Source: Centroberyx gerrardi
Lineage: Eukaryota; Chordata; Actinopteri; Beryciformes; Berycidae
DNA length: 64,000 bases
NCBI RefSeq assembly: GCF_048128805.1
Contig: NC_136005.1
Location: forward strand, 20,238,260 to 20,302,259
Direction of reading: 5' to 3'
In this document: one piece after another, positions 3,756 to 63,539 of the stretch
Position numbering within the stretch: the first letter of the stretch is position 1
Layout: every line of letters starts with the position of its first letter
The notes under the pieces: model-generated
Databases searched by the model: none
Told to the model about the DNA's origin: nothing
The model's input: only the letters and a program-made list of their open reading frames with translations
Program-made: the position numbers and the translations under genes

Positions 3756-6700
3756 TTGAAGGGCAGGTCTTCAAAGCACAAGGTTTGCATTTCACATCCC
3801 AGATCTACCATCACCAAGTCATGAATAGCCAACAAAAACCTGTCAATGCTATCAGGATGATGTAGGCTATACGTTAGTGAAACCATTTTGAGGTTGATGA
3901 ATTATACTTTATCTGATAGCACTGTCCTCCACGGGCGTAAGTTGCTGGAAAAAAAACAATGATTTGATGTCTGAAATCTTCATACCTTCATTAGTTAAGA
4001 TGTCAAACGTTTTAATATCTCAAAAACTGAATGTAAAGTAGATAAAAATGTACAACTGCAATTGGACTGATGACTTGACCCTGTCAAATGTTCAACGTAG
4101 ATTCATAAACTAATGAACATTACTGTCAATACTCTCAAGATGATGTTTGTAGAGCCATGATGAAATTCATTGATTGATAATGACTGATTAATTAACTACC
4201 GTATTAGAGTTCTAAAACAACCATAGGCAGTATCAAAATACTTAAGTTACCTTTAGTTCTTTTCTCCTCAAATAAACTATCAGAGGTGTTAGGCTCCATA
4301 GGTAAAGCACTGCCGCTCGAGCTGAAGATTGTGGGTTCAAATCCAAGCCTATCCTTTTTGAAGTCATGAACTGCCAAGAACAATTATAGTCATTGTCATA
4401 TTTTCCAATAGAAAGTTCAGCCATTGTGAATAATTTACAAACGATTTACATCACATTTCTTTCAAAGGCCAGAATTACCACACCAGCGGTCACACTGTCA
4501 TAAAATAATTTCTTTTTTATCCTGTGTCTGTTGGTTATCTGGTTATCTGTTGGTTAGAATGTCTGGCTAACAATAAGTCCAGTTAGTACACTCTGTCTAC
4601 CAAACTTCATGCATAAGCTAAATGCACTAACGTGTTTGGAATTAAACAGGTTGTCATGGGAAATTGTTTCTTCAATCTGTATTCAGATTGTATGCTATTA
4701 GATTTTGGCTACTTGAAACATTTTTATTTAAATATGTTAAATTCAGATCTTTCAGTGTGCTGAACCAAATGTCACAAATGCTAATTACATTTTATCATAT
4801 TGTCAATAGACAATGTCACTCTATGGACATTATCGACATTAAAACACTGTGGAAACACCCAGAGGAACTCATTTATGATCTTATTGAGCATGACTAACCA
4901 GAGGCATGATCCATATGTGACATTGTCAGTAGACACAGGCAAAACACTATAACTGTAAAAAAAAAATTAAAAAAAATAAAAAGCCTGTCCCAGTTTAAAA
5001 TCCTTTGGTACAGTAACTGTCTTGAGTTTGCTCAACTTCTTGGAAAAAGATCTCATAACTACAGATTGAAAGTTTGCAGAACAAGCTGTAATGTTGGCTT
5101 AACAAATACATTTAAGTCAGGAGAACTAATCATTTACTGTTCATTTCACATGAAGGAAGTTGATGCAACAAAACCTAAGCAGTTATACGAACTCCATATG
5201 GCAAGTTTGTCAAAGAAAGTTGGATGGGTCATTGCATAATTGAGCCCACTTAAAGTTCTGTATCCAAGTTATTCACATTTTGAATTTGAGAAAACTCAAG
5301 ATGTGTATTGTAAACAGTTACCAAAACATTTTATGTTGTGCAAGCAAACTTACATAGGTATTTTAATCAATAACAAATAATTTTAAGTTGAATGAATAAA
5401 AACAACAGCATTTTAAGAGAAATGTAATAAACACCCGTTTCCCGTTTCCGACTGGGTCGCATTACATTGGGCCATATTAACTTTACTCGTAAACCTAGAG
5501 TATTTTACAGGCCTGTTTTGACATTTATGTAAATTCTGTTGTGTATTGCTGTTTCTGCATTGTTCAAAACAATTCTTCACACTGGAAGGTATATTGTTTA
5601 AACAATTATGGCCACTCTTTCAGTATACATAGACCATAAAAGGTTCCTATAGTTTAATGTTATGTTACTGATAGATCAAACCTTTCCCAGTTTACCCTAC
5701 TTTTATACCAGTGAACTCTCCTAAAAGGATTAAACCTAACATGTTTACAAACTTCATAAATTGAAAATAATAATAAATAAACACAAGACAAACCAAAAGT
5801 ATGTGTTTCAAGCTTCAGCTGTTGTATGGTGTTTGCAACTAGAAGGTAATAAATCAACCATAATCTCTCCTATGATGTTGAGAGCGTGTTTTTGAGTGAC
5901 AGGACTCTGTTTGAGCACCAACCACCAAGGTACACCAAGAACACCTTCTGAACAGTCTCAAATATACAAAAATACATACAGTATATTTTCAAGTTTCAAC
6001 TATTTGAACTAAATATTTCAAGTGGAATAACCTAACAACAGAATAGGGGTTCAGACAATGAGTCAAAACATCCTGTGTCAATTTTCTACATAAATTATGT
6101 TGGCGTGATTGTTTATTTCAAGCTCTGGCAACTTTTTGGGGATTTCTTATGCCAACTATCACCTCCATTGATTCCAGTAGGCACTAACAAATTTAGAGAA
6201 ATAGTCCACCAGGGCCAAACGCCCATAATGACAGGACTGGAGATCAACCTCATGTCTCTCCAGAAATTCAATTCCCTCTGCTAAGGCACAGAATCTGTCC
6301 CCGATCTGTAATGGCATAGTTTCTAAGGTACTGCTTCGGAAATATATTTTCATTGCAGAGAATAGTTGAAGGTCTGTGTGAAAAGGCTGTAGATGCATAA
6401 AGTATGTTAGGAGTTTTCTGAATATTGGCCATATTACTTGTTTAATCCTTAATCACACTAACCCACAGCCAACACATCACCACAGTGAGTATAGTGCAGT
6501 ACTACGCCAGAATGGACAAAGCTGTAAAATGAAGGTGTAAGCTTCAGTGATAATTAATGTAGCCTAGTGGAAGGTTGGTATATGACATCAGTTTGAATAC
6601 AACAATTTTTCCATTATTTCACAGATGTTTGATGCAGTTTGTCATTACACATTAATAGGCCTACTACAACTTTTGTCCACAGTCAAGGCCTAAGATGAGG

Positions 6701-6861
6701 AAAGTTGGATGTTTTCCATTTGTGGTTTAATTAACAGAATGATAATTTTATGTCACATCATACCTACAGTAATACGCAAATCCCTTCAAATTCCAACCTT
6801 TACATACATACAATGTACATACAATGTTACCATTTCAGAAAAAGCATTTCAACCCAGGTGC
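3756..6861. other. Intergenic DNA, AT-rich, no gene recognised
   Basis: No splice-consistent coding segment or recognised protein similarity was seen on either strand. The only structured items noted are a tRNA-like SINE remnant near 4286-4350 and scattered A/T runs such as the one near 4957-4982. Confidence 0.5.
4286..4350 (+). repeat. tRNA-derived SINE remnant
   Basis: The segment has an A-box-like TTAGGCTCCATAGG and, about 37 bases on, a near-consensus B-box GGGTTCAAATCC. These are the internal promoter parts of a tRNA or tRNA-derived SINE. The would-be acceptor stem ends do not pair, so a working tRNA is unlikely. The call is tentative. Confidence 0.35.
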
Positions 6862-7864
6862 TAGGGGTGTAACGCTAATGCCATCTGTATCTGTTTAGTG
6901 CCACTATTTGTATCTGTATTCGTATCTGTATTCGGATTTAAACCGGAAGTGGGCGTGTCGCAGGTATACTATTGTAAGTGAAGTAGGCTACTTATAAAGT
7001 TGACATAATGTTGTTAATTTGGCCAAACGGGATAAGGCAGAAAACATGCATGAGACTGTTTTTTCCTTGTTTTATGCAATGTGTAACATTCCTTTGCAGG
7101 CAGACTTAGTGAATTTCGGTCCAGTTTGTATGATTTTGGAGATGAATCTGCTATGCTTGGTTGAGCAGGACAGTGATTAGGGCAGCTAGTTCCCAAAGCC
7201 AAAAACCCAAATCAAAACTGTTTTATCTACTATTTCATGTACAATGTCAACATCACAACATCACCAACATCAAATTATGAAACTGCTGTCCACCAATCAA
7301 TGTTTTCTCAAAGCCAAAACGAGGCTACCAACATCATGTTAGCCTGCTGAATCAACCAAGTAAAGTTAGGCTAACATTGACTCACCACCAGTGGACTCTT
7401 TGGCGAAATTCTTGATGATCTTGGAGTAATGTTAACTATAATGTTAGTCCAATTTTAGAGAGATGAGATGAGACGCTCCTGTGACATTGTTCTTGTACAG
7501 AACAAGCACAGATCCTGTCCAGGCCCACGGCGTGTGTTGAATTCAGTTCAATTCAATGCAAACATTAAAGTCTGTAGGGCAGCAGAAAACAAGTTTTGAG
7601 CAAATTGTGGAATTTTAAGTTTCACTTTTGTTTTCACCGGGCCATTGTGGGAAACACTGCATCTCTTAGCCAAAGACGCCCTCTAGAGGCCTGACGAAGC
7701 GTTGACTGTCTGCCTGCCTGACCTGAATATGTCTCTTGATGCCCTCGGCTGTGCCGTGAGAAAAAAACGTATATTGTGCCTCCCATTTGGATGACATTCG
7801 TATCTGATTAAGACGCATTATTCGTGCATTCCAAATAATGTATTCGTATTCGTTTACATCCCTA
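6862..7864. mobile_element. Non-autonomous hAT-type element, 1,003 bp
   Basis: Terminal inverted repeats read TAGGGGTGTAACG on the left and TAGGGATGTAAACG on the reverse of the right end. They are flanked by exact 8-bp direct repeats CCAGGTGC at 6854-6861 and 7865-7872. No intact transposase frame is present. It ends only about 200 bp beyond the cpt2 copy B stop codon, so it may fall within or next to that gene's 3' UTR. Its right part (about 7499-7755) is repeated in inverted orientation at about 56335-56800, inside slc1a7. Confidence 0.88.
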
Positions 7865-8064: not shown

Positions 8065-11000
8065 TTAGCTGATAGGCTTTCCTTCCAGGACAGTGAAGAT
8101 GTCCTCTAAGGACTTGTGGACACACTGCAGGAACTCATGGACGTTGCGAGCCGGGTAGCTAGACACGGTGCACATGATCCAGTTGTCATGAACGCTGTAG
8201 CCCACACCGAACCCATCAGGCACCACCGGGGCAAAGCCACCAAGGTTGATAGCTGGACTTGTGAGGGTGCTAGTAAAGAGGATGTTGTGGTTGATAGTAA
8301 CGTAAGCCGGGTCGTTGTACCAGCTATGTAGAGCCTGGCCCTTTGAGTTGGCCAGGTATTGCAGGGAAAACAGATGCCGGTCAAAACCTTGGCCTGGTGA
8401 GAGAAATTAAAAAAGGCATTGAACTATCATTTATTTCATGAGTTGTACAACATTATAGTATAGCTCATATGATGTTGATGTTCGATATGTTGTGCCAAAA
8501 ACTGATATATTGGTCTAACACTTGTTGCAGTAGTGGCCACGTTCAGTGCACTAATACCATTAAATGTGCCAATAAGTGAATTAATCACCTCGGTTGTAGG
8601 TTAAAAAATGTGGATATAATATCAAGATTTGATACTGTTAGGGGTTTTATGTCTCAAATAATTTCATTGTTCAAAATCATGAAATCAAGTACACCATAAT
8701 TCCCTAGTTTTTGCTGGCACGGCACAACAGTGGGCCTAGTTACCTTAGCCAGAATTTTCTCTGCTGTTAATACACGTTTGATTAGCAAAGTTGACTGCAG
8801 GCTCTTGACTCACACAAAAAATGCAAGAACTGAAATGAAAATTGCTTCAAGGATATGCTTTCATATTTAATTAACAACAGAGGCTGCATTTATTTCTTAT
8901 GTATATCAGTGGGACAACCTACTGAATATTTCAGGGTGTGATAACTTGTAATCTGCATGTAGAAATGTTATATACACACCCATAGCTGCTTCCTTGATGA
9001 GTTGCCCATGATATTTGGAGCATTCACTGAGCATGGCCAGCAGCTGCTCCACACTGTGTTGCCCTGGCTGGCAAACAAAAGCATGTGCACAGCGTTTTGT
9101 GTGAATGGTGGCTGGCCGGATGGTCTCTGTGCGGCCGTGCCTGAATGCTGCAGTGCTGCAGGACTCATATGTTGTCACTGTCTTTCCGTATTGCCTCAGG
9201 AAGCCCATTTGAAAAGCCAGCTGGGCTATAGCATCTGGACTTAACTTGCTCTTCTTCAACTGTTCCTTCCCACCCTTCTTAAACTCCATGGCATCAATGG
9301 TGAGTTTTGACACAGCTGCATGAAAGTTCTCCTTGGCTTTCAAAATGCCATTCTCCAGCTCACTGTCCAGGTTGAACTGGAGTCTGCGCACAGCAGAGGC
9401 TGAATCCACAGCAGCAGCAGCAGAGCCAGGGTTTACCAGCGGCTTCTCTGTGGTGTCTTTGAAGATCTCATTCTGGAAGCGGAGCACAGTTACACCATTG
9501 CCCCAAGAGTGCTCAAAATTGATGGATGCCTGTCCATCTTTGGTCAGAATGATGCTGAAGGACTTGTCGTACCAACGGTTGCATCCATCACCATGCAGCA
9601 TGTTGTGTGCAATGTGACTGTGGTCCCGCATGCTCTCATCGTCGAGGCAGAGACAGAAGAGGGCGCTATCAACAATCTGCAGAGCCTCTCCATTTCCAGC
9701 AGCCAACAGCTTGTCCCTCAACCCGGCCCACACATCCCTGTTCTCACTGGTCAGGACCCCAAGAGGAAAGGCAGGTGCTGGCGTCGAGTCAGACAAGATG
9801 TACTTCAAGTGTGACTGGATCTCTGCAGGATTCACCAAATTCCCGTCCCGGTCTACTACGTCAAATGCATACATGTTGCCTTGCCTCATCACTAGGAGAT
9901 GCCGTCCTTTCTCATCGGTGAAGAGCTCATCTCGCCCGTGCTTGGGGATGCGAGTGGAGTTGAAGAGGCGAAAGTACTGCGACATGTCCAGGGGGTAAGC
10001 ATTCACCATGTAGGCTCCATACCAAGACAGCGAAGAGGGGACCCAACGGATGAGCTTCTTGAAGCCGTCTGTGTCACTCTTAGCTGGGTTGAGGTGGAAA
10101 ACCTCTGGCTCCAACAATCCAGCTCGCAGTGTCTTCATGAAGCGGACTGCAGAACAAACCATATTGGTCCCCCGCACAAGCTGGTCGTTGTACTCCGTCT
10201 TCGGGTCAGGATTGAAGGACATGAAGGGATTGAAGTTCAGCACAACAGAGTCACGTGCAGACAGGTACATGTCAAACCATGGTCCTGAAAGATAAGATGT
10301 GAGTAGACCAAATTAATTTCTGCTCATATGCATTACAAACACCCCGTTTCATGCTGATATTCAGCTACTTCACACATTCACCTGAAATGTAGCTGGTGTG
10401 CTTATTGTTCTTGTCCTGAGCGACAAGTTCTTCATGCAGCTGTTTCCCCACACCACTCTGGAAATCCTCAGCAAGCTTCTCTGTTGTTCTGAGGGCACAT
10501 AAAAGGTTGTTGCAGCACAGATTTGAAGAGTTAGGTTTGAGCACGGCATCTGAATCTAGTAATCAAATGAAAATGTTGATTTCCTTGCGCTCACCTGAAC
10601 TGGTCATCATCCAGAAGTGGCCTCTGAGCAGCTAAATACCTCCTGATACTATCTTCCAGTTTCGGTATGGGTAGCCTAAAGAATTAATGTAGGATTAATG
10701 GAATAGCAAATCAATAGAGCAATCCAGATTTGAGTCCTAAAACCTGGATGTGAAAAACTACTTGTAACCTACTGCTTGCTGCAGGGTGTCTGGTAAGAAC
10801 TTGAACCCGACGTCTGTTTACAATCCTAGAATATTCATTGAGAAACCAGTTGAATATGATTTTGAATGTGTGGTTGTTCCAAAGTACACACAGAAATTAA
10901 AGAAATCGAGAATGAAAGGGAAACATTGGCCTTGTTTACACTGGAAGTAAGTTTGTTTTTTTGTTTTTTTTAAAAGCTTTTTTTATTTCAATCATAATGT

Positions 11001-13211
11001 ACAAGACTGACAGCATTAACATTATGAATAAATGAGAGACATTAAAAAGCAAAGCAAAACTCAGTACAGAAATATAACAAGTATTTTTGTTGAAAAAAGC
11101 TTCATAATGAGTTAGTAAATTCAAGCTCTTCCAATCCTTCAATAAGCTCAGAGACTCTTAGTTCAATTAGGAAGGGAAGTAAATTAGGTGAAGACTTTCT
11201 GCTTGTGGATAAAATATTTTGCATGTTGAATACGAAAGTTTACAATATATTCAATAGATTTGTTGTCAGGGTTGTCATAATAACATCGACTATCTTTCTG
11301 TATAAAATTATCGGTAAGATCTGTTTTTGGAAGGTGAGATAGAAGTTGTTGTGAAAAAAGAAATAGTGAAAAAAAATGCCCCCCAAAAAAGGCTTAACAT
11401 GCCTTAATGAGCTAATATTGAAATGAAAAACCATTCCACTTGACTAGAGCCCAAAAAAAATGTCTACAAAAGAATGTCTACAAAAATCTTTAATTCAGGC
11501 ATTGGGGGGAGATGCTGTGGTTGTAAATTTCAAGTTAAAAGTAAATCAGTAACATGGTCAAAAAAAAAAAAAAGGAAAAAAAAAAACTAACAAGAAACCC
11601 AATTGAAAGTGAATGGAAATGATTGAGCTTAATGAGGCTTAATACAGTTTAATTACCTAAAATGGATCAAGAAATTCTGAAATGAATAAGGGGGACAACA
11701 TATCCTAATAATTTACTACCATCAAAAAGAAAACACTGGGTAAAAAAACAGAAATAATTGTAATTAAATAATCATGTGGTAAATTCCCCTAAATCCATTA
11801 AATATAAGTAGTAAGTAAGGTAAGGTTGGATGAAATAAAATGTATTTTAAGTGTACTTAGTCATAAGACTTGCTATGATGCTATCATTTTAGGTTTACAT
11901 GGTTATGCAAGGAATTCAAATAAGGTAAACTCCTACAGAAAATATTAATTGTATCTGCTCTGATGTTTATCAAACAACACGGACCTCTGCTGAGCCCCTA
12001 GCTTGGAGCCTTGTTAAGGCTACAAGCCTGAGGACCCAGACCCAGTTTGGCAGTTTTTAGAAACCTGGCAGAGAGATTTTTTTTTTAAGTTGTCACGTAA
12101 TGCTTTCTAATTAACGATGTGATACCTCGTTAATTAGACAGTTGTGGGTAAAATCTTGGTTATGCCAGCCGGAACAGCTTACTTACTCACTAGTTAATGT
12201 TATGTTACAGTGTGGATAGCCTACACACAGTTACATTCATCCACGGACACTCCCATGTAAAAATATAAAGTACAAAACGATTTATTCACAATACCATACC
12301 ATAGGCGAATCCACAAGGCAGTACTTATGCAGGAGTAAAAATGTAATAACTAAAGCAAAAAATAACGTTAAAACACAAAATTACCATTATAGTCTAAAAG
12401 TACATCCAGGAGGAACAGAACACTGACCAGAGAGTTTCTTAAAGAGACAGTACGCTACTATATTACCTACATAAACAATAAATGGTGATTCAATTATTTT
12501 ATTTTTTAATTATGTTTCAATACAAGGAACTAGGCTATACTACACTAAACAAAGATATGAAGACTATGTTTACAGTAGAGATAAGAAAGCATAAAAGGAA
12601 AAATTCTCCAATATAGGTTTGGCTCATACAACAGTTTTACTAGGCTGTATATTGATGCAAATTGTCCATATAAGTATTTTTTTATGTAAAAGACAGCAAC
12701 ATAATATTTGTAGTAGCTTGTAGCCAATGTGTAGCCTCTATTGTAATACAGTGAATTGGAACTTGATATATAACCTTTTTTTTTATACCACTACAACACT
12801 GGCTACAACCCCCTCTCCCTTGATGGAGAGCAGGCTGAAGTTAGCATTGGTGATGACCAATTTAATTTCTTTTGAGGTTTCTGACAAATGCTAACTCTTC
12901 ACTTAAAACATATTTTTTTGTGGTTAATTGACACTAATGTTACTCCGAATTTGATAAACATGTACTGTAATGTAATAACGTTGAACTTGACAAAATTTGC
13001 ATTCAGCTCCTTACCTGGGCAAACTCTTCTGATAATGCATTGATGGCACAACACTTTGGTGCAGGTACTCTGCTGAAGACCCATTTTTGCTGCTGTAGTT
13101 TCGCTTATCGATGACCAATGCAGCAGTCCTTAAATATTTTAGACTCCCAAATTTCCTTAGAGAGGCACTGCATTGCATTGAAAGCAGATTTGCCATTATA
13201 TTAACAAGCAA
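8065..13211 (-). CDS. cpt2: Carnitine O-palmitoyltransferase 2-like, tandem copy B (complete, altered active site)
   Basis: Five minus-strand exons, 13211-13015, 10675-10595, 10488-10382, 10284-8980 and 8393-8065, join with GT/AG sites and consistent phase. They give 672 residues plus TAA (human CPT2 is 658). The N-terminal presequence is followed by [14 protein letters not shown]. Exon 4 matches copy A at all but 12 of about 435 residues by hand count. The catalytic His is about residue 387. The Asp four residues later, present in copy A and human (Asp376), is Asn391 (codon 9497-9499, EHSWGNG). The STS motif (human 588-590) reads FTS, with Phe603 at codon 8275-8277. Other changes at conserved sites include TVTTYES and QLIKEAAMG. 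No stop or frameshift is present. Identity as a CPT2 paralogue is certain; catalytic competence is doubtful. No canonical AATAAA is seen between the stop and the hAT element downstream. Confidence 0.93.
10745..12880. other. Expanded intron 1 of cpt2 copy B
   Basis: Intron 1 is about 2.3 kb in copy B but only about 0.3 kb in copy A (1804-2101). The extra DNA is AT-rich with poly-T and poly-A runs (about 10960-10985 and 11560-11587). No coding frame or clear element ends were recognised. Similarity to copy A resumes near 12945, just before exon 1. Confidence 0.6.
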
Positions 13212-13262
13212 TCTGACTACCTGATGTGAGTTTATGGAATGCTATAATGGAACAAGCACGTA

Positions 13263-13346
13263 AATAAATGAAAAATTGTGTGTGCAAAGGTAAGTGCACC
13301 CCTTGAGCTGAATTGTGTCACTGACAAATATTTGATCAACATTTCA
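13263..13346. repeat. Left arm of an inverted repeat pair bracketing a 3.9 kb insertion
   Basis: This segment, from AAATAAATGAAAA through GCACCCCTTGAGCTGAAT to AATATTTGATCAACAT, is the imperfect reverse complement of 17131-17213. The outer ends point outward symmetrically, like terminal inverted repeats. Similarity to the copy A upstream region ends exactly where this arm begins. No target duplication was found. Confidence 0.75.
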
Positions 13347-15073
13347 TATCTTATGCTGTTCAGATGTGTAACAGCCCTCCCACTCTATTGCTTTCTTCCT
13401 GCTGTTTGTGCTTCCATTACAGGTGACTGACAGGCAGAGTTGGGAGTGTCATCGGTGCTGATGTAGGGCCCCTGGGATGGGTGAATCCCAAGTTATTTAA
13501 GATGGCTTCTCTCTCCCTCTTTCTCTCTCTCCTCTCCACCCTTCTGGATGGTTTGAGCTTACAGTATGCTCCCCTTTTTGTTCTTTTCTCCCACCATACA
13601 ACACCCTCACACCATGCTTTACACTCATCGCTGCAATACATACATTACTGACTTTACAGACTTACACACTTCTTTTTTCCTTAGGATAATTTAGTTATTT
13701 AGTTTACCATAAATCATTTGTTGTAATACTTTGGTCTTCCTTTTTGTCAAGTCCATTGAGCCTGGGCTGTGACATCCTGGTTGGCTGAGCACGTGCATGC
13801 AAATTTCAGTGCGCTGAGGCGACTAGATGAGTGGTTAAGCCAATAAAGCCCTGTTAGGGCTCCACCTGTGATCATATAGAGTTACAATGTGTAACTATCG
13901 TTCTTAAACAACTTCACATCAAGCACAACCAGGCGTCGGTGTATCATGCGCAAAGCCAGGGTGTGCTTGAGCAGTTTCAGACTTTGAAGTCTTAGTTGCG
14001 CTTGTAGCAGGGAACACTGTTCCTGACTGGATTCCACTGCATCCCTAGTAGGATCCATATAGTAGTAGGATCCCATATATGGTAGTGACAACTCCTCCCA
14101 CTAGCAACATTTCAATCAGTGCAGGTAGTATAAATAGGAACTAGTTTGGTAGCTGCGTGCACTCCTTCTCTGTCTGCTGAGCCAATGTTTCCCCCTGCTG
14201 TGGTCTTTCTGTTTAATTTCTCACCTTGAGACTGTTAGCTTTCCTGATGGTGGCCATTCCCCATGTCTGCTTTGGGTAGTAGCAGACGGTCATTCAGCTG
14301 AGGTACGATTCTGGTTGTAATCGGCCCGTGAAAGTCAGACTTGGTCTCTGCCACCGCTGCTGTTTTGCCTGAGTTGAATTGTTTTTAGTTTTAGAGTGTG
14401 TTCACAGTGCTGCTTGCCGCTGTACGAATTGTAACGGTGTCTGTGAATTTCCCCCTGGGGCATGTGTTTTGGAACTTTAGTAGGATTCTACAGTGGAGCT
14501 GAGTGCCGCCCTGGTGGGGGTTAGTCCGGTCCCTTCACTGCATGCTGAGTACGAGCACTGGGCACCTTGTAAGCTTGGTTTTGCTGTGGTTCAAATTGGT
14601 TTTGCTGTGGTTGTACGAGTGAGTATTGCACCCCCTGGGCATCCGCCCTCATAGTCTCAAACCCCCCTTCAGTGGCCCTCACCCACTCTAGTGTTTTACT
14701 ATCCTGCTTTTAGTCTATCCTAGTTTTATACAGAGACTGGAAGTAGTTTTAATTAAAAGAAGATATTGTATTTTGTGTACTTGAATAAACTATTTTTCTA
14801 CTGCTGGCATAATAGTTTATGGCAGTCTTATTTCAGTGTTTCCTAACCCCCTTCTTCCCCAGCTCCTTCCAGTCTCCTTTTCAAATTTTAATAAATAACA
14901 TTTTTTTCATTTGGAAACACGTCTCTGTCTTCCTTTAGTGGATGAACCTATGCGTTACTACCTTGGGTATTTAGTCTAGTACTTATTGTGATATTTCCTT
15001 GGGTGAAATTCCCAAGGTGGCGTTGTTTGCTTCCCCTTTCCTTACCACCATGTCACACACGCATATTGTACAG
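13347..15073 (+). mobile_element. Non-coding part of the insertion, possible LTR or leader DNA
   Basis: No coding frame was recognised. A TATA-like stretch (AGTATAAATAGG, about 14129-14140) is followed about 640 bp later by AATAAA-type signals (about 14783 and 14889). That arrangement resembles the U3 to R order of a retroelement LTR. It lies upstream of the gypsy coding remnants. A second LTR copy was not found, so the call is tentative. Confidence 0.3.
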
Positions 15074-15570
15074 ATTTGGGTGGCGACTGGGAAGAAGGGT
15101 TGCCATGGTTACTGTTGTCTGCTAGGGAGGTGGTACAGGAGAGTACGGGCTTTAGCCCAAATGACTTGGTCTTTGGGCATATGGTGCATGGTCCGTTAGC
15201 TGTACTGTCTGATGGTTGGAAATCAACACAACCCCCACAAAACGTATTAAGCTATGTCAATGGGTTTAGACATAGGCTTTATGCAGCACTGGAACTGGCA
15301 AAATTGGAGGCTGCACAAGAAAGAATGATGCGGCTTTATGATTGGCGTGTAGAACTTAGGCAATTCAGTCCAGGAGACCAAGTTTTTGCTCTGTTGTCTA
15401 TTGTTGGGTCACCAGGGTTCCAGGCGAAATATACTGGTCCTTTTGATGTAATACGGCAAATCTCCGAACAAAACCATTTGATAGAGACGCCAAATCGGAG
15501 GAAGTCCAAGGCTGTGCCACATTAATCTTCTGAAACCTTACTATGCTTCTTCAGTATAGAGGATCCTGAA
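15074..15570 (+). pseudogene. Ty3/gypsy integrase C-terminal fragment
   Basis: The frame reads like the end of a retroelement integrase. It has the region around FSPNDLVFGH, the basic stretch MMRLYDWRVELRQFSPGD, and a GPY/F-type module ending KYTGPFDVI. A one-base frame change near 15505-15510 moves the continuation (LCHINLLKPYYAS) into another frame. The catalytic core is absent upstream. It lies before, not after, the RT fragment, which is unusual for gypsy elements. Confidence 0.75.
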
Positions 15571-15670
15571 GTAACAACGTGATGTGGCTGTTGGGGTTCA
15601 GTGAAGTCAATGAAGAAGCCAATGCTTCTATTGTGTCAGTCCTGAGGAACGTGAGCATCTGGAGTCAGAA

Positions 15671-15845
15671 GTGAAATATATTTTAGAGAATAATATCGCT
15701 GAACCTTCCAATTCCAGCTGGGCCTTGCCGTGCGTTTTGGTTAAGAAAACGGACTTGACGTTTAGACCTTGCACGGATTTTCGCAAGGTTAACAATATAA
15801 CTAAGCCAGACTCCTTTCCTCTTCCTCGAATGGAAGACTGTGTAG
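15671..15845 (+). pseudogene. Ty3/gypsy reverse transcriptase N-terminal fragment
   Basis: The translation contains FRPCTDFRKVNNITKPDSF followed by PLPRMEDCVD, the conserved start of gypsy-type RT. Similarity stops after about 15845, before the catalytic YxDD block, so this is a dead remnant. It follows the integrase fragment by about 100 bp. Confidence 0.8.
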
Positions 15846-16481
15846 ATTGTCGAGGAAAGTCAGCACGACTCAGACTCGGTTTAAGAGTGTCCAAAGTATG
15901 GTCTATTTATTGCACATGCATGCATGGAACAGTGTACAGAGCAAGAGGGTCTAACAAAGTCTGCTCTTCTGAGGTGGAGCAGCCAAAATACAGTGTAACA
16001 AACAAAAACATCGCCTGACATCTGAGCTCACTCGACCTAAGTGGTAATTTTCTAACTAACTTGGGAAAGTTAGAGACAGACTGTGAGGAATAGGGAGTAC
16101 ATGTCTGTGGTCGTATTTTGACATTGGCCAAGGTCGTTGGCTTTGACACAATTGAGATATGTGAGGCGCCTAAGCGTCTGAATAAACAGGTCAGCTATAG
16201 GTTAGGTGTCTCTTTAAACCAAGGTACAGAGTAAACAAGATAGCCAGGTGTTGCTCAGATGTAAATTCACAGGTTCATGTTAAAACACGTTTGGTCAAAT
16301 CCTATGATTGAGATAGATTATCTAATACATTGGTTTCATAATAATTAGTATATTCATTCTTATCGTGATCGTATAGGTAAAACACTAGATATGATTGAAA
16401 GGTATGGTTTGTATTGGATTCCGTCTATTGTCTATGATAAATCAGTGGTCACCACACAGGTACCTAATTCGGAGATGACAG
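15846..16481. other. Unrecognised DNA inside the gypsy remnant, replacing the RT core
   Basis: The missing RT core should lie here, but the roughly 640 bp show no RT similarity in any frame. It may be a replacement, an inserted element or decayed sequence. No target duplication or inverted ends were identified. Confidence 0.5.
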
Positions 16482-16802: not shown

Positions 16803-17130
16803 GTTGTCACATCACACACGGTATCCAACTTTGCCTCCTCCAATTTCTGTCTTCTGTCGTCCTCCCTCCTCTTTGCTCCCAGGATCCGGGTTGCTGAGAT
16901 GAAGTCCACTGAGCTGGGCAGTGGCAGATATCATATTCAGGTTGGATCTGTAGGTCACATTCCACACTATACTCATGTTTTCTGAGTTTGAATCCATCCC
17001 ACACCCTGAAATCCGATTCCATTGAGACCTGTTATCAACTTTTGTTTGCTAAAAAAATTTGAATGGCAAATAATGTTCAGAACCTAGAGCTACAGCCTGA
17101 ATATGACATCTGATATGTTATATATATCAT

Positions 17131-17213
17131 ATGTTGATCAAATATTTGTCAGTGACGCAATGTAGCTCAAGGGGTGCACTTACCTAGTTTGCATCCTAAT
17201 TTTCATTTATTTG
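17131..17213. repeat. Right arm of the inverted repeat pair bracketing the 3.9 kb insertion
   Basis: This is the reverse complement partner of 13263-13346, sharing the GATCAAATATTTGTCAGTGA block and AGGGGTGCACTTACCT. With the left arm it encloses the gypsy remnants. Confidence 0.75.
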
Positions 17214-19240: not shown

Positions 19241-22200
19241 ATGCCTGAATTACAGACGGCGAGGTGAGATTACTTAACGTTATGTAGTCTAATTTTGACA
19301 TTTTGGATGGCTAACGTTACTTGTTATTGAATAATTAATCGAGGTCACCCTCTCTGTCCTGGCTGTGGTGAAGGCAGGCTAACCTAACCTGCCAAGCTAT
19401 GCTGAGGCAAATAAACCACTAGTTTAATTTGTGTAACGCTCATTTGTACATTCATTCGAGCCTGTGGCTAACATTAGTTTTCTAACCGACCGTTGGTTAG
19501 AGCTTAGGTCTGTTTGGAAGCTTAAAATCAATGGTGCATTCATCTACAACCAACAGTTATTTACCAACTAGTGCCATGATATTTTGTTATTCGTTTTAGA
19601 AAGGTCAAACCAGGGTCTTGAACAGGTGCTACTTTGCTAAATTCAAGCTGGGTAATTCTGCAACCACCACTGTTAGCCCTAAAGGGACGCTAGATGGCTG
19701 TGCCATTTGTTGTCCCAATTAAAACCCCTTTTCCACCAGGAAACTTGGCTAAGAACTTAGACCCAAGAATTGGGAAACCTAAAATGTACAGTTGAAATAA
19801 AACAGACACAGGGCTTAAATTCTAGGGCCTAGGTTCCTGGGGCTTAGCTAAGTCCCCTAGTGGAAAAGGGGTTGTTGTACAGTGCCAACCTCTTCTCAAC
19901 TGTCTGGAAAATGTGCATAAAGATGTTGGCATGTTGGCTTTAGGCCATTCCAGGCGCATCCCGCTGTGCAATGTGCACCCAGCATTGTGTAGCCGGAAAA
20001 AGGCAAGGTTGACGTTTAGACACACCAACTGTAAACCAGGTAGTGATGTCAGATCTGGAGGCCACAATCTTGATGCACCTGATCCATTAGTGGGAGTGAT
20101 AATCGAGAGGATTTTGTGTCCTGTGTCACCTCAGTATTGGACAGGTGACTGGTGGGTGCACTTACTGATCAAGTAAGTGTTTGGCATTTAGGCCTACATG
20201 AAAAAAACAAAGTGTACACATGCTGTATATTATGAAATTGAAAAGGGTACACACACGCCATGTTACACAGTGCGTTAAGTCAATATAATAAGAATCAACT
20301 TCAGTGTTTGCTAGGTTATTATACTATATTTGTTTTTTTTGGATGACCATGAAAGTTTGTTTGTTTTGCGCTTTTGTCTCTGTATCTCTGTCTATCCCTT
20401 TATGAGGAGTGTGGACCTCATTTCTCTCTCACACTTTGCTTTTGTCCTAAACAGGCAGAGGATTCGAGCAATTGACACCAGTGCTAGTGATGGATTGGAG
20501 GGGTTCAAGGCACATGCTGTGTTCCAGGAAATTAACAAGAAGCTTCAGGAGGTGATTGCATGCTTTTCAATAGAATAAAATATTACAGCCACAGACCTTG
20601 GTGTTTTTGGTAATTATTTGCTCTCAGACAAATGTCCGGTAAAGTTTTATTTTCTTTGACATGCCAACTATTTTGGAATTATTTCAGAAGTGGCCTACAG
20701 CTTGATATAAGTTTAATTATTAAGCAACTGTTTTCTCCATCCAGTCATCTATTTCTAAATAGGAAACCTAGGGCTATGTCATACTAAAGCATTGGCTTAA
20801 AGCTTAGTGATGGCACATTTGGATCAATTCCCAAACTGGAGTTATTTCATATCACAAAATAAGTTTATCTTATTTTGTTTGATTCAATCAGACAAATGGT
20901 TCACTCAAAAACTTTGTTTATCAGCAGTTGCCTTTTCTGACCTCAATCGTACCAGATCACAAGCTGGAAGACAGTGTTGTCTGAGGAATGAATCCGCTTT
21001 GTCATCAGTGAGAAAATGGCAACAGTGGACCGGTCTGGATGCTTATAGAGATGGTTTAGTGGAAGATCTCAGTCAAAGTAGGCCAATGATCAGACACAAA
21101 GATTTAAAGCTTATCCAGCTTGTCCTACTTTTGACTTTACATATTTGTTAAAAGTTGACACTGAAGGGGGATTGTCTGTTTCCTATTAGGATCCCAACAT
21201 TTTTAGGCAGATTTAGTGTGCTATTCCAAACCAATGAATTCCTTACCTTGTTTATCCTGCGCTATGTAGGTTTAGACTGTCAGTTTATGATATGTTTGGA
21301 CTATCGAGTCCTCTTCATGGTCTCCTGTAGTTCTATAATATAGAAATATTCCCCATGCTGTACATATAACATTATCTTAATTCTACAGAGTAACTCCATT
21401 AATGCTCACTTAGCCTGAACAGACCATTTATCCCTTGCAATGGATTTTCAGTGCTTTATTTTACATATTTCAAAGGACGACTACAACCTTAATGTGTTAA
21501 GGAGTGAAAATATTCAATTTTCATTCCACAACTTCAACCAAGAGAACATTACAGTAAAACCTTGTGAGAATAGAGGTATGGTTGTGAAAATTAAATGTTA
21601 AGAATTCTGAAATACATTGAAGAGCTTCTAATGATAAAAATGAAACATGAAATGTATATGAAACACACTTCAGAACACTCTGAAGTGAAATGCTTGATAT
21701 TGCATGTATTGGTAGCGAAATTCCAGTTGCTGCACAAAATGAATGAAACAGTCCCATTTCACATTTTCTGCTCTTTATGTACATTTGGTAGTTCAGAAGT
21801 CATAGATTTGGATAAACAAGGGTTTGTTGTATTTAACATTTTTGTGTACTTTGAACAGGATGGGGAGCAGTTTGTGAAAAAGATTGGGGGAGTTTTTGCC
21901 TTTAAAGTGAAGGAAGGACCAAATGGACAGGAGGGAACTTGGTTTGTGGATGTAAAGAACGGCAAGGGTTGTGTTCACAATGACTCAGGTGAGAAAACAC
22001 ATGGGGCTGGAAAACAATATCGGACCTTCCTGTTATCTCCAGATGAAATTATAATGTATTAATATGCAACTGTGTGGAAATGCAATTTCAAGTTAAAGGG
22101 CTATCTGCAGATTCTGAGCAGTTTTCCATCTGAACTGTTTTCGTTTGCCTTGGGTGCTCAGGTTAATCTTTGTTAGTGTGATTTGATTAGATTTTTCATA

Positions 22201-43520: not shown

Positions 43521-63539
<20,019 letters not shown>

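Follow-up and report, generated by a model that had tools for sequence, protein, structure and literature searches.

In the stretch of Centroberyx gerrardi DNA analysed here, one member of a tandem cpt2 pair, copy B, is read at about even odds (a probability near 0.5) as an old duplicate whose CPT II catalysis would be compromised and which would now evolve under relaxed constraint, its frame perhaps kept open partly by gene conversion. The window, as we call the whole stretch, is 64 kb inside a 34-Mb contig of a 779-Mb genome, and its two cpt2 genes lie head to tail on the minus strand. Established directly are the sequence facts, the contrast in age between exons and flanks, and the excess of changes in copy B. 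The two genes are built as follows, the last exon of copy A lying in the stretch directly left of the window (L044):

13015–13196, minus strand: copy B exon 1, with the start codon, the presumed mitochondrial targeting region and a 12-nt in-frame insertion
10595–10675, minus strand: copy B exon 2
10382–10488, minus strand: copy B exon 3
8980–10284, minus strand: copy B exon 4, whose enclosing open frame matches Pfam Carn_acyltransf
8065–8393, minus strand: copy B exon 5, with 13 of 108 residues unlike copy A
2271–2102, 1803–1723, 1616–1510 and 1420–116, minus strand: copy A exons 1 to 4, spanning 116–2271
9497–9825 of L044: copy A exon 5

The four introns of copy B all run from GT to AG, and its exons join into a single open frame of 667 residues plus a stop, with no stop inside. 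The five exons, splice sites and open frame of the original prediction are thereby borne out, although its count of 672 codons was five too high. Once exon 5 is added from the left-hand stretch, copy A is whole as well, with an open frame of 663 residues, and exon junctions and phases are identical when the two copies are compared with each other. The human CPT2 gene also has five exons. The only coding indel between A and B is in frame; a 12-nt insertion in copy B exon 1 (13071–13082) adds Gly-Ser-Ser-Ala after the presumed targeting sequence and is not in copy A. A search of copy B for the marks of a disabled pseudogene (stop, frameshift, broken splice site, intron loss) found none of them. 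The frame at 8906–10288, which holds exon 4, matches PF00755 (Choline/Carnitine o-acyltransferase) with an E-value of 1.9e-126 and a score of 423 bits, the cut-off being 22.3. In the genome search, exon 4 and exon 5 were each found at two places, without any further cpt2 copy, and a tandem cpt2 pair in fish is named in no title listed by our literature searches on fish cpt2 duplicates.

Elsewhere in the window, a frame at 21595–22062 matches a sterol-carrier (SCP2) domain (E 3e-5) and leucine-rich-repeat frames lie at 37–38 kb, an arrangement that we take to resemble the human CPT2 neighbourhood (SCP2, PODN). Retroelement frames are represented by a reverse transcriptase frame at 52780–54513 (Pfam RVT_1, E 1e-38), by a second set of RT-like frames at 59231–62879 that was judged by eye, and, at 15007–16018, by an integrase-like frame with a match below the curated cut-off and, after it, an RT-like frame again recognized by eye. 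An open frame with a proline-rich stretch lies on the minus strand at 43521–44033 and has no Pfam match at E 0.001.

Two codons of copy B alter the active site:

9497–9499, minus strand: AAT (the plus strand reads ATT), Asn386 of copy B, corresponding to CPT2 residue 376
8275–8277, minus strand: TTT (the plus strand reads AAA), Phe598 of copy B, corresponding to CPT2 residue 588

Both had been predicted and both stand on direct reading of the gene strand. Alignment with rat CPT2 confirms their equivalence to Asp376 and Ser588; Asp is found at 376 in copy A and in rat, and Ser at 588 in copy A exon 5 and in rat. The numbering offset to the human and rat proteins is the same at both sites, as claimed, but amounts to 10 rather than 15. 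At these positions, the PDB chains of rat CPT2 have EHSWGDG and LSTST. As for what an active CPT II is expected to carry, copy B has the catalytic His372, has Asn in place of the acid at 376 (His-x3-Asp/Glu), and reads Phe-Thr-Ser at the STS motif (588-590), which is Ser-Thr-Ser in copy A and rat. Arg498, Thr499, Thr589 and Ser590 are retained together with His372. Mutagenesis of rat CPT II reportedly implicated Asp376, together with His372, in activity, the mutant being to Ala; literature searches for Asp376/His372 mutagenesis returned nothing on it, and we know of no assay of D376N itself. The two changed residues are real, but counting only two was too low: exons 4 and 5 hold 25 amino-acid differences between A and B, and damage confined to two residues is thus ruled out.

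How strictly are these sites kept among distant relatives? A scan of bacterial genomes with a single protein as query found no relatives; an alignment-based scan matched 82 stretches, 41 of which encode relatives. Column 376 is Asp in all 41 and Asn in none, Arg498 is likewise kept in all 41, and His372 is kept in 40, so that residue 376 is conserved at least as well as the catalytic histidine. At column 588, 33 relatives have Ser and five have Asn, Cys, Ala and Thr occur once each, and no residue is aromatic. Across the bacterial relatives and rat, nine of 544 columns are invariant, 376 included; three of the nine (349, 353 and 354) belong to the pattern used to fetch the relatives, to which 376 does not belong. 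Of the 29 columns in which 38 or more of the 41 relatives agree and the rat residue is the same, copy B deviates at 376 alone. PDB chains shown have Asp at this position in CPT2, choline acetyltransferase and carnitine octanoyltransferase; carnitine acetyltransferase, like copy B, departs from Asp there, but its Glu is acidic, unlike the residue of copy B. If the 25 replacements of exons 4 and 5 are placed at random, however, at least one of the nine invariant columns is struck with a probability of 0.35, so the strike by itself does not show selection for loss, and D376N as proof of selection is ruled out.

Given the invariance of 376 and Arg498, Asn376 would lose an ionic contact near His372, and Phe588 would place a bulky ring beside Thr589-Ser590. 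The B protein would retain the carnitine acyltransferase fold. With Asn in place of the acid at the fourth position beyond the catalytic histidine, and with bulky Phe replacing the serine that opens the STS motif, its long-chain carnitine acyl transfer is probably strongly impaired or abolished. In combination, Asn376 and Phe588 would most likely cut carnitine acyl transfer severely; Asn376 alone may be milder, because the rat mutants reportedly made were to alanine. In the part of PMC3731235 available to us, His372, Asp376 and Ser590 are among the residues contacting a docked drug and His372 is named as catalytic; for carnitine acetyltransferase, the accessible text of PMC11852590 has the histidine take the proton from carnitine or CoA.

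It is unlikely that copy B is a working CPT II, with activity lowered and not abolished, that adds dosage or a tissue-specific isoform. Such an enzyme would fit the open frame, the retention of the five residues named above, the isostery of Asn with Asp, and residues Thr379 and Ile543 of copy B, which are the commonest bacterial states (23 and 18 of 41). It fits poorly with the bacterial relatives, none of which has Asn at 376 or an aromatic residue at 588 (0 of 41 for either), and with human Ser588Cys, which is listed beside Ser590Asn and Arg560Gln in a table of variants in the accessible part of a review on CPT II deficiency (PMC7221885). Residue 560 is Gln in copy B and Arg in copy A; its match to the human variant is weak evidence, because column 560 varies in bacteria (Arg in 4 and Gln in 10 of the 41 relatives).

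The tandem duplication is old, judging by what surrounds the exons. Alignable intron 4 and 3′ flank show 137 differences between A and B in 786 aligned sites (17%, K ~0.20), a count that omits two intron 1 pieces and the 128 columns directly after the stop, which look converted; 17% may be too low, because local alignments favour similar stretches. The intron 1 pieces show 16 mismatches in ~134 aligned bases (about 12%), and the 128 columns show four mismatches and are 94% identical. Introns 2 and 3, in contrast, have no substitution in 195 aligned bases and a single 8-base indel. This difference in divergence (p 6e-15) rules out a recent duplication of the entire unit. The duplication also reaches well past the 3′ ends of the genes, 8758–9303 of L044 aligning with 6263–6863 of the window over 607 columns at 74% identity, gaps counted. 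"Very early decay", one of the states suggested originally for copy B, needs revision in view of a K of ~0.20.

Within the genes, synonymous distance between A and B is 0.037 in exons 2 to 4, 0.048 in exon 5 and 0.029 in exon 1. Since exons 2 to 4 and introns 2 and 3 are nearly identical while intron 4 and the 3′ flank have diverged, the near-identity is best explained by gene conversion, which would have left islands of difference behind. The 25 base differences in exons 2 to 4 (13 nonsynonymous and 12 synonymous, dN/dS 0.30) are clustered, 12 of the 24 gaps between them being 12 bases or less against a mean of 4.5 in 20000 random draws (p 0.0001). One such island surrounds the catalytic motif:

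9488–9620, minus strand: island of 10 A/B base differences, affecting residues 336, 339, 361, 367, 376 and 379 as well as silent sites

Beyond it, 311 coding bases pass without an A/B difference. The islands also bear on whether the two codons could be artefacts of sequencing, assembly or haplotype, or else rare alleles that this one individual carries. A single assembly is the source of both, but each change sits within a clustered island of many A/B differences, and the two copies, whose introns and flanks differ, are on the same 34-Mb contig; an artefact is thus highly improbable.

The replacements are unevenly spread, in place and between the copies. They are denser in exon 5 (13/108) than in exon 4 (12/435; p 0.0002), and exon 5 has 14.5 nonsynonymous against 3.5 synonymous A/B differences (dN/dS 1.22). 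Judged against rat, 17 of the 25 replacements in exons 4 and 5 arose in B and four in A, and four are unpolarised (17 against 4, p 0.007); individual calls may err because rat is distant, and three more replacements in exons 1 and 2 lie outside this set. Over the five exons, 31 sites have G or C in A and A or T in B, against 13 with the reverse (p 0.0096), and CpG is lost ten times in B against once in A (p 0.012), both directions being set by comparing A with B, without an outgroup. A copy released from constraint and mutating in the usual way would show such a pattern.

The regions upstream of the two genes differ as well. Ahead of the ATG, the two copies share similarity over a short stretch. 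The 351 bases upstream of copy A have a single genome match, which is that sequence itself, and no counterpart was found at B. A repeat is found close to the start of copy B:

13262–13367: dispersed repeat of ~105 bp, starting 66 bases upstream of the copy B ATG

A 191-base query from upstream of B gives 41 matches including itself, 39 of the others to the dispersed repeat, which thus has at least 39 other genome matches, one of them inside the window at 17124–17212. Around the start, the CpG observed/expected ratio is 0.65 (16 CpG) in A against 0.15 (4 CpG) in B. Because the upstream sequence of A was not found at B and the repeat adjoins the B ATG, copy B may be without the promoter of copy A.

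The faster replacement in B, the exon 5 dN/dS, the loss of CpG and the missing A-like upstream sequence lean to relaxed constraint. The dN/dS of 0.30 in exons 2 to 4 would count against it, although part of that value reflects constraint on A. Is the open frame itself a sign of selection? In simulation, the frame stays free of stops after 30 random substitutions in 36% of cases and after 120 in 2.7%. The intact frame is weak evidence of selection, because more than a third of the 30-substitution simulations stay open and A can repair B by conversion. The conserved frame with a damaged catalytic site that had been proposed is supported, and the original choice among pseudoenzyme, altered specificity and decay narrows to two readings: an old duplicate that drifts under relaxed constraint, and a protein that is functional but has an altered active site.

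In the preferred reading, copy B would have arisen as an old head-to-tail tandem duplicate of cpt2, and its frame would have stayed open through its former function and through conversion with copy A. After the last conversions, it would have evolved under relaxed constraint and may be becoming a pseudogene. Copy A would supply the CPT II activity, and expression of copy B is probably low or absent.

Less likely, though possible, is that copy B is a functional paralogue whose active site has changed. Copy B could then be a pseudoenzyme, binding carnitine or acyl-CoA or acting as a partner of copy A, or an enzyme of altered acyl specificity, and selection against conversion at the active-site islands would explain their persistence. 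Five of the 25 replacements (residues 376, 597, 598, 615 and 624) fall within a pocket of 23 residues taken from the available part of PMC3731235, where 1.06 would be expected, on a list that includes residues picked for a mammal/nematode difference (hypergeometric p 0.0026; circular shift, which keeps clustering, p 0.015). This enrichment leans to altered function, and plain drift would not predict it. The gathering of replacements in exon 5, the clustered differences of exons 2 to 4 and the persistence of an intact frame in so old a duplicate also agree with a functional paralogue, and CPT1C, called a pseudoenzyme in the accessible text of PMC5934389, offers a precedent. On the other hand, an exon 5 dN/dS near 1 is as expected of drift, random conversion tracts also yield clustering, the GC-to-AT and CpG changes bear the signature of decay, the upstream sequence of A was not found at B, and the choice of residues for mammal/nematode difference weakens the pocket list. 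More specific, and doubtful, is that B is an expressed mitochondrial protein of CPT II fold that has gained a different ligand, another range of acyl groups or a part in regulation, selection barring conversion in the islands; the remodelled active-site positions would then be Asn376, Phe588, 597, 598, 615, 619, 622 and 624.

Among known systems, copy B resembles CPT II itself (rat structures 2deb, 2h4t and 4eyw), with 305 of 436 exon 4 residues and 72 of 107 exon 5 residues identical to rat, a PF00755 match and the catalytic histidine kept. It differs from CPT II in Asn376, Phe588 and 15 other B-derived replacements in exons 4 and 5. CPT1C, like copy B, is a carnitine palmitoyltransferase paralogue; it is described as fast-evolving and, in mammals, as no longer mediating mitochondrial long-chain fatty acid transport, in the part of PMC4589379 available. 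The same source places its origin in the early vertebrate genome duplications and its mammalian location in the ER, whereas copy B is a local cpt2 duplicate.

As CPT1C shows, a paralogue called a pseudoenzyme can arise within the carnitine acyltransferase family. If only relaxed decay is at work, copy B would represent an ordinary phase in the life of a duplicate. A natural CPT II with Asn376 and Phe588 beside an intact twin provides a ready test of both residues, and the cpt2 pair could likewise serve to test the origin of pseudoenzymes in this family and how conversion spares or erases active-site differences in tandem paralogues.
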